Of a stretch of DNA of 64,000 bases, positions 36,459 to 46,753 are shown piece by piece. Numbering within the stretch: position 1 is the stretch's first letter; the number at the start of each line of letters is the position of its first letter. The stretch is taken from assembly GCF_028368935.1 (NCBI RefSeq), contig NZ_JAQNDK010000006.1, forward strand, positions 727,501 through 791,500, given 5' to 3'. The notes beneath the pieces are model-generated. The model saw only the letters and a list, made by a program, of their open reading frames with translations, was not told the DNA's origin and searched no databases. Made by a program: the position numbers and the translations under genes. The stretch comes from Sorangium aterium (GTDB taxonomy: Bacteria; Myxococcota_A; Polyangia; Polyangiales; Polyangiaceae).

Positions 36459-37850
36459 TCAGCCCCCGAGCGGCGTCTCCAGCGCCTGCCTCCGCGACAG
36501 CGTCCGCAGCTTGCTCAGCGCGCTCTCCTCGATCTGCCGGACGCGCTCCCGGCTCACCGAGAACATGCCCCCGATCTCCGCCAGCGTGTGCGGCTGCCCG
36601 CCGTCGAGGCCGAACCGGAGCCGCAGCACGTCGCGCTCTCGCGGGGTCAGCGCCTCGAGCAGCGCAGAGACCTGCGCGTGCAGGCGGCGGTGGACCAGGA
36701 GCTCGTCCGGCGCGGCGCCCTCGCTCGCGAAGAAGTCGCCCTGGCGCGCGCCGTCGTCGTCCCCGACCGGCGCGTCGAGGTACACGGGCGGCAGCGCCAC
36801 CTCCCGCAGCGTCTGGAGCTTCTCCATCGACAGCCCGCTCCGCTCGGCGACCTCCTCCGGCGCCGCCTCGCGCGCGTGCTCCTGCTCCAGCTCCCGCCGC
36901 GCCTGCAGCGCCCGGCGCCGGGTCTCGGCGATGTGGACAGGCACCCGGATGACCTGGCCCTGATAGAGCAGCGCGCGAGAGAGCGCCTGCTTGATCCACC
37001 ACATCGCATACGTGCTGAACCGATAGCCGCGCCGGTAATCGAACTTCTCCGCCGCGCGGATGAGCCCGAGATTGCCCTCCTGGATGAGGTCGAGCAGCGG
37101 CACGCCGCGGTGACGGAGCTGCCGGGCTGCCGCCGCCACGAGCCGCAGGTTCGCGCGGACCATCTCGGCCCGCGCCTCGGCCGCCGCCCGGCCCGCGACG
37201 CGCATCGCCGAGAGCGTCCCCTCGATCGCCTCGCGCCCGCGTCCATCGACCGCGGGGATCGCCGCGCGCAGCGCGCGCTCGATCCGCTCCTCCACCAGGG
37301 GGCCCAGGCGCACGTCGGAGAGTCCAGACGAGAGGGCGGCGCGCGCTCGCTGTCCGCTCGTCTCCGTCCGCCCGGCCTCCGCCAGGGACCGCGCGAGCCC
37401 GAGCAGCCGCGCCATCGTCACGGATGTCGCGTCGCTCGGCGCGTCGCCTCCGTCCGCGTTCAGCAGCAGATCGCTCATGTCCACCCGCCCCGCCCGCAGC
37501 TCGTCGGCGAGCGCCGCGAGCGCCCGCAGCGCGACGGGCGACGCGACCCAGGCCTCGATCATCGCGCGCTCCGCCGACTCGATACGACGGCCGAGCTCCA
37601 CCTCGAGCTCGCGGCTCAGCGGCGCGCTGCCCGAGATCTCCTGGAGATAGACCGCGGCGACGTCCTCGCTCGGCCGCGCCGGCGGCGCAGCCCGCCGGCT
37701 GGTGGGCGCTCCCTGTCGCGACGACGGGGGAGGGCGGGGGTCGGCGCCGCGCTGCTCCTCGGCCCTCGCGCCGGCGACAGCGCGCCTTCCCTCCAGGATC
37801 GTCGTCTCCGCCTCGCCCAGGAGGCGCGAGTTCGTGGGACTGTCGTTCAT
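36459..37850 (-). CDS. Sigma-70 family RNA polymerase sigma factor, RpoD-like (group 2)
   Basis: 463 aa from ATG 37850. Region 1.2 '[26 protein letters not shown]', a non-conserved insert, region 2 '[34 protein letters not shown]' with 2.4 '[12 protein letters not shown]', region 3 ('[17 protein letters not shown]') and region 4 '[18 protein letters not shown]' with the HTH '[28 protein letters not shown]' are all present. Region 1.1 is absent and the region 2.4 differs from a housekeeping sigma, so this is a primary-type alternative sigma factor rather than the main RpoD. Target promoters unknown. Confidence 0.92.
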
Positions 37851-43492: not shown

Positions 43493-43899
43493 GCCCACGC
43501 CGGCGCGATCGTTGACGCGCCCACTTCCCCTGCCCTGAGAGGCGCCACGCGCCTGGACGACATCCACGCAAGTTCGGAGGCGTCCCACGCTCCAAGCCGG
43601 GAAACCGGGATCGAGCTGGCGCGCTCTGCATCGAGAGCCTGTTCGCGAAATGTTGCGGTGCTTACCGCACGGCGCCGTCGCATGTGCGCCGTCCACCTGC
43701 TCCCCGCGCTCACGCGTGGCGCGTGGCGCGTGGCGCGTGGCGCGATCGATCCACGCGGCTCGCGGGAAGGGATTGGATCCGGCGCGACTACGTCGTAGTG
43801 TGGAGAGCTCGCATCGACCATCGCACCGGCCGTCGGCTGCAGCATCCAGAGCAACGATCCGGCGGTCATCGCGCGCGCCGGTCGAGAGATGGAGAAGAG
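43493..43899. other. Intergenic region with heptamer repeat
   Basis: 407 bp upstream of the STAS-like gene. Holds the GCGTGGC tandem repeat (43714-43741). No other structure seen; the frame open from 43684 has no recognisable content before 43900. Confidence 0.5.
43714..43741. repeat. GCGTGGC heptamer tandem repeat (4 copies)
   Basis: Four exact head-to-tail copies of GCGTGGC upstream of the STAS-like gene. A second 7-bp tandem array of a different unit occurs at 48664-48684. Confidence 0.85.
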
Positions 43900-44277
43900 A
43901 TGAGCTGCTTGAGCGTGGATCCTGTCGTCACCGACAGCTTCGGGATCGAGCCGGCCTTGAGGGACGACACCCTCAGCGTCAAGCTCACCGGCACGGGCGA
44001 CATGGCGGCATGTTCGCCGCTCAGCAGGTACGTCAAGGCGCTGGAGGGCGAGGTGATGCGCCTCTCGGTGAGCACCGTCGAGTTCGACGTGCGCGGCCTG
44101 TGCTTCATGAGCTCGAGCTGCCTCAAGGCGTTCGTCGGCTTCATCTGCGGCCTGATGAGCCATGGTCTCAGATGCAGGATACGGTTCGTCACGGACGCGA
44201 AGCGGACATGGCAGCGTCGGAGCCTGAAGCCCCTGGATCGCATGTGCCCGGAGCTGGTCTCGATCGCGGACGCATGA
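43900..44277 (+). CDS. STAS-like (anti-sigma-factor-antagonist type) protein
   Basis: 125 aa from ATG 43900 with GGAGAAG upstream. The core 'LSVKLTGTGDMAACSPLSRYVKAL...VSTVEFDVRGLCFMSSSCLKAFVGFI' follows the STAS order of strand, helix, strand and the phosphoserine loop; FMSSSC sits where SpoIIAA has DSSGLG, so one of the Ser residues is a plausible phosphorylation site. The similarity is moderate and the family assignment is inferred. It is 16 bp upstream of a SpoIIE-phosphatase fusion, which is exactly the enzyme that would dephosphorylate it. Confidence 0.65.
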   Translation: MSCLSVDPVVTDSFGIEPALRDDTLSVKLTGTGDMAACSPLSRYVKALEGEVMRLSVSTVEFDVRGLCFMSSSCLKAFVGFICGLMSHGLRCRIRFVTDAKRTWQRRSLKPLDRMCPELVSIADA

Positions 44278-44293
44278 TCGAGAGCCCGAGGCC

Positions 44294-46753
44294 ATGACGA
44301 GGAAGCGTCGGACGCTCGCATTTCTGATCGACAATGTCGTTGGCGACTACCAGTCCGAGCTGCGCGCCGGGATCGAGCGCGGCGCCGCGGCGCACGACGT
44401 CAACCTGCTGACGGCGTTCAGCGACCCGGCCATGGCTCGCCGGCCGGAGGTGGCGGACCGGGGCACCTTCTATCACCTCATCGGCCCTGAGACCGCCGAC
44501 GGCGTCATCGTCGCCTCATCGACGCTCTCCCCTTACGGCGGCATGGAGGTCATGCGATCGTTCTGCCGGTCCTTCGCGCCGCTGCCGGTGTGCAGCATCG
44601 GGACCGCGATCGACGATGTGCCGAGCCTGATGGTCGACAACGCCCTCGGGAGCGAGATCTCGGTCGGGCACATGGCGGACGAGCACGGGTGCCGGCGCAT
44701 CGCGTACATCGGCGGCCCGAGCAGCAGCGAGGAGGCCGCGCTGCGCGCCTGCGGGTACCGGAGGGCGCTCGCGGCGCGGGCGCTCCCTTTCGACGAGCGC
44801 CTCCTCGTGTTCGGTGGGTTCACGATCCCGACGGGGCGCGCGGCGATGCGCGAGCTCCTGGCTCGCGGGGTGGCGTTCGACGCCGTGGTGGCGGCCAACG
44901 ACAGGATGGCGCTCGCGGCGATCGAGGTGCTCAAGGCCGAGGGACGCCGCATCCCGGAGGACGTCCTCGTGTGCGGGTTCGATGACGTCGGCATCGCTCG
45001 CTTCACGAAGCCGTCGTTGACGACGGTGCGCCAGCCGATCGAGCGGCTCGGGGGGATGGCCGTGAGCACGGTCCTCCGCATGATCGACGGCGAGGCTGTC
45101 GAGGCGCTGCAGCTCGCGCGTGTGGAGCTCACGCAGCGCGAGTCCTGCGGCTGCGGCTACCGCGCGGGCGACACGTTCCTTCAGCCGGTCCCCTCGGCGC
45201 GCGGCTTCCCGCGCCCCATCGCGGATCAGCGGGCGTCGCTGGAGCGCGCGCTCGCCAGCAGCGTGGCGATCCCGAGGGGCGCCCTCGACGGCTGGGCGGG
45301 CGACCTGCTCGCCGCGATGGAGGCGGAGCTCGCGGGCGACGAGGGGCGCTTCCTGCGCGCGCTCCAGGCGCTCCTCGACGGGGCGAGGCGCGAGGGCGTG
45401 CTCCTCGAGGAGTTCCAGGCCGTGATATCGCTCTTGCGCTCGCGGGTACAGGGGTCACCCGTGGGCGGCGACGCAGCGCTGGAGCAGCTCTGGCACGCCG
45501 CGCGCATCCTGATCGGGAGCGAGTGCGTGCACGTCGAGGGGGAGCAGCGGCTGAACGTGGAGCTCGCCGCGATCGATGTCACTTACGGCGCGCGGGGCTT
45601 CTCCGCGTGCTTGAGCCTGCCCGTGCTCAAGGGGTTGCTGGCGTCGGAGCTGCCGAGGATGCGGTTCTCGGACGTCGCCGTGTCGCTGTACGACGATGCT
45701 CAGCAGGCCACCATGAAGCCGCTGTTCGTGATGGAGGACGGCCACGAGGTGGAGGTGCCGGCCGTGAGCTTCCCGTCGCACCTCCTGGCGCCCCCGGGCT
45801 TCCTGGAAGCCGACGAGCGCATCAGCAGGATCGTGCTTCCGGTTGCGTTCGGCGACGAGGAGCGGTTCGGCGTCGCGGTGCTCGATCACCGCGCCAGCGG
45901 GATGATGTACGAGGTGCTGCGCCTCCAGCTCGGCTCCGCGGTCAAGGCCGCGGCGCTGCACCGGCAGGTCGTCCGGGAGGTGGAGCTGCGCGAGCGGCTG
46001 GAGCAGGAGCGGGTCCGTCAGGAGAGCCAGGTCGCGGCGCGCATTCAGACAACGCTGGTGCCGAAGCAGCTCTCGATCGAGGGGCTCGACCTCTGCGCGG
46101 TCATGAAGCCGGCGGCCGAGGTCGGCGGCGATTACTACGATGTGATCCCGGCGAACGGGGGCGGGTGGCTTGGGATCGGCGATGTCGCGGGGCACGGGCT
46201 CGCGGCGGGCCTCATCATGCTGATGATCCAGAGCATGGTATCGGCGCTTACGTGCAACGACCCGGCCGCGAGCCCGGCGAAGGTCGTCACGGCGCTCAAC
46301 AAGGCAATTTTCAAGAACGTCCGCGATCGTCTGGAGCGCGACGAGCACGCGACGCTCCTCTTGCTCCGGTACGAGCGCAACGGGCGCGTGACGTTCGCGG
46401 GCGCGCACGACGACCTGATCGTGTGCTCGGCGCGGACGCGGCGCTGCGCGTGCATTCCGAGCTCAGGCGTCTGGATCGGCGCGCTGCCCGAGATCGGCGC
46501 GTTGACGCGGGATGCGGAGCTCTACCTTGGGGACGGGGACGTTCTCGTGCTCTACAGCGATGGCGTGACCGAGGCGCGGAACGCCCATCATGAGCAGTTC
46601 GGGCTGGAGCGGCTCTGCGCCGTCATCGAGGCTGTCCAGACCGAGCCTGTCAGCGTGATCCGCGACCGGATCCTCGAGGAGGTCGAGGGGTGGTGCCCGA
46701 GCCCGGACGACGACATCACGATCGTCGTGGCGAGGTATCGGGCGCCCGAGTAG
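44294..46753 (+). CDS. LacI-type ligand-binding domain fused to SpoIIE/PP2C phosphatase
   Basis: 819 aa, cytoplasmic. Residues ~5-275 are a periplasmic-binding-protein-like domain of the LacI/GalR kind ('TLAFLIDNVVGDYQSELRAGIERGA', 'VVAANDRMALAAIEVLKAEGRRIPEDVLVCGFDD', 'SLTTVRQPIERLGGMAV') but with no N-terminal HTH. A CGCG Cys pair closes it. Residues ~300-590 are a linker region, partly helical. Residues ~590-819 are a SpoIIE-type PP2C phosphatase: EVGGDYYD (609-616), DVAGHG (from 630), 'YSDGVTEARN', DDDITIVV, with metal-binding Asp residues present. Predicted role: a small-molecule-controlled phosphatase acting on the STAS protein encoded upstream. Confidence 0.88.
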   Translation: MTRKRRTLAFLIDNVVGDYQSELRAGIERGAAAHDVNLLTAFSDPAMARRPEVADRGTFYHLIGPETADGVIVASSTLSPYGGMEVMRSFCRSFAPLPVCSIGTAIDDVPSLMVDNALGSEISVGHMADEHGCRRIAYIGGPSSSEEAALRACGYRRALAARALPFDERLLVFGGFTIPTGRAAMRELLARGVAFDAVVAANDRMALAAIEVLKAEGRRIPEDVLVCGFDDVGIARFTKPSLTTVRQPIERLGGMAVSTVLRMIDGEAVEALQLARVELTQRESCGCGYRAGDTFLQPVPSARGFPRPIADQRASLERALASSVAIPRGALDGWAGDLLAAMEAELAGDEGRFLRALQALLDGARREGVLLEEFQAVISLLRSRVQGSPVGGDAALEQLWHAARILIGSECVHVEGEQRLNVELAAIDVTYGARGFSACLSLPVLKGLLASELPRMRFSDVAVSLYDDAQQATMKPLFVMEDGHEVEVPAVSFPSHLLAPPGFLEADERISRIVLPVAFGDEERFGVAVLDHRASGMMYEVLRLQLGSAVKAAALHRQVVREVELRERLEQERVRQESQVAARIQTTLVPKQLSIEGLDLCAVMKPAAEVGGDYYDVIPANGGGWLGIGDVAGHGLAAGLIMLMIQSMVSALTCNDPAASPAKVVTALNKAIFKNVRDRLERDEHATLLLLRYERNGRVTFAGAHDDLIVCSARTRRCACIPSSGVWIGALPEIGALTRDAELYLGDGDVLVLYSDGVTEARNAHHEQFGLERLCAVIEAVQTEPVSVIRDRILEEVEGWCPSPDDDITIVVARYRAPE

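Follow-up and report, generated by a model that had tools for sequence, protein, structure and literature searches.

A STAS gene, a LacI-type sensor phosphatase gene and the remnant of a putative kinase gene in Sorangium

Genes and domains at the locus

The DNA analysed here (the window, 64,000 nucleotides in all) comes from the 13.5-Mb genome of a Sorangium and carries on its forward strand a STAS gene at 43900-44277, followed after a gap of 16 bp by a sensor phosphatase gene at 44294-46753. Both open reading frames are intact and have positive coding potential. The features of the locus are the following:

43831..43913, + strand: slr1658-like 3' remnant of a kinase gene, ~20 codons, frameshifted by a 2-nt deletion
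43900..44277, + strand: STAS-domain protein of 125 aa, a distant relative of the slr1659 superfamily, with S72 of the motif FMSSSCLK as predicted phospho-acceptor
44294..46753, + strand: sensor phosphatase, 819 aa (Pfam, AF2 model, VIA-align, conserved catalytic Asp)
Residues 1-287 of the sensor phosphatase: LacI/PBP type I effector domain
Between the effector domain (ending at 287) and the helical region (from 309): linker motif RESCGC
Residues 309-437: helical region
Residues 442-531: alpha/beta GAF-like domain
Residues 536-587: one long helix
Residues 598-815: SpoIIE/PP2C domain

Short GTGGCGC direct repeats are also found in the noncoding stretch upstream of the STAS gene (window 43712-43749).

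The original prediction was of a LacI-type sensor without a helix-turn-helix (HTH), fused to an intact SpoIIE/PP2C phosphatase and adjoined by a STAS gene. This architecture is borne out by the two reading frames and by Pfam, which detects Peripla_BP_3 (1.8e-30) and SpoIIE (5e-37; 128 bits against a cutoff of 25) in the 819-aa protein. Pfam finds no HTH in it, and the sequence begins at the first PBP strand; the protein thus lacks the N-terminal HTH of a LacI/GalR transcription factor and has the effector domain of that family, with its PBP type I fold and ligand residues. With the AF2 model (mean pLDDT 82), VIA-align gives Z 26-27 for residues 1-287 against LacI, CcpA and CelR; for the C-terminus it gives Z 26.6 against the RsbU domain of Rv1364c and Z 24.5 against the PP2C domain of SiaA. 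R151, N202 and D230, ligand-pocket hallmarks of the LacI family that presumably correspond to LacI R197, N246 and D274, are conserved among relatives. The acidic residues D613, D630, D756 and D806/D807 of the PP2C domain are present and near-invariant in relatives, and together with the Pfam score these metal-binding positions identify a PPM/SpoIIE-type phosphatase. Hydrophobicity maxima are weak and all lie within the PP2C core. Pfam gave no match for residues 442-531, so that the term GAF-like refers to predicted secondary structure only.

Cellobiose was considered as a ligand of the sensor. The best PDB match is cellobiose-bound CelR, but LacI, CcpA and RbsR tie with it structurally and no ligand is therefore assigned; the CelR match is appealing as the host is a cellulose degrader.

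The STAS protein, the sister kinases and the loss of the kinase gene

When the STAS sequence is searched singly, Pfam reports STAS_2 at 17.5 bits, below the cutoff of 29.2. A family profile of 24 relatives matched SpoIIAA among PDB sequences at 9e-6, with the SSC of the profile aligned to the SSG of the FMDSSGL loop of SpoIIAA. The AF2 model (mean pLDDT 93) has SpoIIAA, RsfB and RsbV as its best Foldseek matches, with SiaC also among the matches, and its helix 2 (72-87) begins at S72. Since the model, Foldseek and the profile all give a STAS fold, the neighbour is indeed STAS-like, as had been proposed, and the alternative of a different fold falls away. Also as anticipated, it carries Ser residues in the loop that is phosphorylated in anti-anti-sigma factors: S72 and S73 are invariant across 24 homologues, and S72 aligns with what we take to be the phosphorylated Ser of the SpoIIAA loop. 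The protein thus combines the STAS fold with a phosphorylatable Ser that opens helix 2, as in anti-sigma antagonists. Judged by its sequence, it is a distant relative of the slr1659 superfamily, scoring 33.6 bits (E 3.8e-8) against the NCBIfam NF047705 cutoff of 100.

The host genome contains five pairs of a STAS gene and a LacI-SpoIIE gene, namely the window pair and four others, of which three form a tandem on contig C1 and the fourth lies on C6. Each of these four is immediately preceded by a gene of ~170 codons that overlaps the STAS start by ~20 nt, and a profile search of the host genome returned exactly four strong kinases, which fall one to each sister module and leave the window pair without one. 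The sister proteins score 31.6-39.6 bits (E 1e-7 to 3.5e-10) against the cutoff of 100 of NCBIfam NF047703, and by this measure are distant relatives of the slr1658 superfamily. HATPase_c_2 and RsbW are weak matches of the kinases of relatives, those in Pfam being sub-threshold, and the kinase profile matched nothing significantly among PDB sequences. An N-box-like ELxENxxKY and a G2-like SGLGLARxRAEG are conserved, with no recognisable G1 box (DxGxG). We refer to the product as a putative HATPase-type kinase. As its gene lies upstream in four sister copies, the module consists of kinase, STAS protein and sensor phosphatase and is thus partner-switch-like; the co-encoded cognate HATPase kinase that defines a partner switch is present in the four sister modules and missing at the window locus.

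That no kinase lies beside the window pair had been noted before, and this is true of the locus itself, where tblastn for an unannotated kinase turned up only the remnant. The absence is nevertheless secondary, as what is left of a kinase 3' end lies immediately upstream and overlaps both the start of the STAS gene and its ribosome-binding region. The 64 nt that end 6 nt before the STAS start are identical to the 3' ends of the sister kinases at 50/64 positions (78%), and in the kinase frame at 43875-43913, 11/13 residues are identical. Chance similarity is ruled out by a shuffle test in which none of 1000 shuffles was as good; the match is shorter and weaker with single orthologues. Some of this stretch may owe its conservation to serving as the STAS ribosome-binding site. 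The picture of a module without a kinase therefore has to be corrected: the kinase belongs to the module, and was deleted from the window copy.

The tree unites the window sequence with four orthologues (support 98). The kinase is missing from every one of the five members of this group and the STAS gene from two of them; across the family, at least six kinase changes and at least seven STAS changes have occurred. In So ce26 (L044:8000-8215, - strand), an in-frame deletion removes the ATP-binding core of a kinase, while the STAS and phosphatase genes remain. STAS orthologues without a kinase have pN/pS values of 0.28-0.45, so that the STAS gene is not simply drifting, and the sensor phosphatase gives 0.41-0.71 across the window clade; constraint is strongest on the kinases (0.14-0.23). 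The remaining STAS-phosphatase pair is thus under purifying selection.

Relatives and known systems

An adjacent STAS gene is found at 25 of the 32 LacI-SpoIIE loci in the tree, which upholds the earlier expectation that the pairing recurs in relatives, and the full kinase-STAS-LacI-SpoIIE set also occurs in other Polyangiaceae outside Sorangium. In other genera, SpoIIE phosphatases whose input is a HAMP, 4HB or Cache domain are also encoded beside the kinase and STAS pair. At several divergent LacI-SpoIIE loci, a few of them cut by contig ends, neither a STAS nor a kinase gene lies nearby, and among 379 sampled Myxococcota genomes there was one case of a LacI-SpoIIE protein outside the family (G412). 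Mean identity among paralogues is 62% for the sensor, 53-59% for the mid-region and 80% for both PP2C domain and kinase. STAS and sensor distances correlate (r 0.60; none of 2000 within-genome re-pairings was as high); given their physical linkage, this reflects inheritance as a unit and is no proof of interaction.

Several variant arrangements were seen among these genomes. LacI-type sensors are fused to histidine kinases in related myxobacteria (L092:3534-6116, -; L098:3944-6814, +; L106:5717-8296, +) and to a GGDEF domain in another (L091:3746-5983, -). At L060:7388-9844 (-), a LacI sensor is joined to a degenerate PP2C domain that has lost its catalytic motifs and directly adjoins an intact one, and at L108:4692-7178 (-) the degenerate PP2C domain reaches only 30 bits for SpoIIE; these proteins are possible pseudophosphatase partners. 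A kinase and STAS pair of the same family stands without a phosphatase gene beside it at L097:4428-5209 (+), and two tandem LacI-SpoIIE genes without STAS or kinase are found in So ce26 (L043:5344-10319, -).

Fusions of a PBD (PF00532) to SpoIIE have been reported in Sorangium cellulosum So ce56 (Treuner-Lange, 2010; PMC2887360), and the novelty that the original prediction implied for the LacI-SpoIIE fusion is thereby withdrawn. Those phosphatases have the same domain fusion as the window protein, come from the same genus, and form a clade expanded by duplication; the fusion was noted there as otherwise almost unique (PMC2887360). However, few SpoIIE genes were read as kinase-linked in that paper (PMC2887360), whereas most complete copies here lie in a kinase-STAS-phosphatase operon, with kinase loss at some copies; the kinase and STAS proteins of these operons score below standard family cutoffs. 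We found no description of the three-gene operon, the kinase loss or the swapped outputs in the open-access papers searched. The arrangement in an operon, the repeated disappearance of the kinase and the use of this sensor by histidine kinases and by a GGDEF protein appear to be new.

Similarly to the RsbU-RsbV-RsbW and SpoIIE-SpoIIAA-SpoIIAB switches, the module has a PP2C phosphatase with an N-terminal sensor, a STAS protein whose helix 2 starts with a (here predicted) phospho-Ser and, in the sister copies, an adjoining HATPase-type kinase gene. Differently from them, the window module has a LacI/PBP sensor, no sigma factor gene and no kinase at the locus, and the sister kinases resemble slr1658 and have no clear G1 box. 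SiaABC(D) of Pseudomonas aeruginosa shares the PP2C phosphatase, the kinase and a STAS-like phosphoprotein with a similar phospho-loop; SiaA, however, has a membrane/HAMP input instead of a LacI/PBP sensor, and SiaC targets the diguanylate cyclase SiaD, of which no linked counterpart was found in the part of the neighbouring genes scanned for GGDEF. Among curated families, the kinase and the STAS protein match best, though both below NCBIfam cutoffs, the slr1658/slr1659 regulators of Synechocystis; work cited in PMC7555055 ties Slr1658 to iron recovery and to the expression of Pgr5 and not to sugars.

Proposed mechanism, output and alternatives

We favour, with a probability of roughly 0.55, a reading of the window pair as one of five partner-switch-like modules, in which a ligand drives the dephosphorylation of S72 and the STAS protein partners the sister kinases in trans. 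The cytoplasmic LacI-type domain would bind a small, sugar-like ligand, and the signal would pass through the helical and GAF-like relay and the long, probably dimeric coiled-coil helix to set PP2C activity; a coiled-coil linker has been described as the common relay of PP2C phosphatases (PMC12143880). The PP2C domain would then dephosphorylate S72 of the adjoining STAS protein, presumed to be phosphorylated beforehand, and the dephosphorylated form would bind the slr1658-like HATPase kinase, taking it off or bringing it onto its target. In complete copies this kinase would be supplied by the first gene of the operon; with that gene deleted from the window copy, the window STAS protein would most likely work on the four sister kinases, several sensors feeding one output. 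The phosphatase may also act on other substrates, as suggested by the loss of the STAS gene in two of the five orthologues and by the LacI-SpoIIE loci free of STAS and kinase. If the favoured reading is right, a soluble sugar sensor is plugged directly into the dephosphorylation of a STAS Ser.

By analogy, the output could be a sigma factor, as with RsbW, or an enzyme, as with SiaC. The modules have no linked target gene, and no sigma gene was found adjoining the sister modules, so that the sigma-factor output suggested originally lacks support. Only in the window lineage (window and L052) does the module have the sigma gene of position 36459 in its vicinity; a link to it, for which the prediction had itself claimed no evidence, was rejected for want of evidence. 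An active pair whose output is not a sigma factor, the STAS protein directly activating or inhibiting an enzyme or another regulator as in SiaABCD, is a real possibility that we hold short of even odds, and it overlaps the favoured reading where the latter leaves the target open. It would suit modules without a linked sigma gene, a PP2C domain that scores better against NCBIfam SiaA (2.4e-11) than SpoIIE (1.6e-6), the resemblance of the family phospho-loop LNSSCLK to the SiaC peptide LLYLNTSSIK with T68, the structural match to SiaC, and the response of SiaABC to carbon availability (PMC7647112). However, the best structural and profile matches of the STAS protein are anti-sigma antagonists, and no gene for a diguanylate cyclase or other effector is linked, as far as module neighbours were scanned for GGDEF.

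The pair might instead be a decaying duplicate, its signalling ended with the loss of the kinase and its genes on their way out. The repeated kinase and STAS losses, in the window orthologues and across the family, are what such decay would leave behind, but the reading frames are intact, catalytic and phospho-acceptor residues are kept, the pN/pS values of the clade speak for constraint, and the clade has had time for its proteins to diverge by 16-28%; we consider decay unlikely. That the LacI domain serves for dimerisation or protein binding, like CcpA binding HPr, and is no sugar sensor, seems improbable to us: CcpA is among the closest folds, but the ligand hallmarks are conserved, and divergence between paralogues is much faster in the sensor than in PP2C domain and kinase, as expected if ligands change.

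Beyond the favoured reading, we tentatively envisage a circuit in which duplicates of the LacI-sensor phosphatase with diverged pockets shed first their kinases and then their STAS genes, and signal via sister kinases; several intracellular sugars would then be combined, as by an OR gate, into one shared output. Repeated kinase loss offers a route to studying how the wiring of partner switches is merged after duplication. The occurrence of one sensor on PP2C, histidine kinase and GGDEF outputs within one bacterial family is what the proposed coiled-coil toolkit would lead one to expect, and provides a natural test of its exchangeability (PMC12143880).

A pyruvate-kinase-like gene (PF00224, ~80% identical across four genomes) lies directly downstream of tandem sensor-phosphatase arrays, and only hints at carbon metabolism:

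L041:4702-6204, - strand: pyruvate-kinase-like gene
L044:3443-4945, - strand: pyruvate-kinase-like gene
L046:3356-4867, - strand: pyruvate-kinase-like gene
L034:3450-4955, + strand: pyruvate-kinase-like gene
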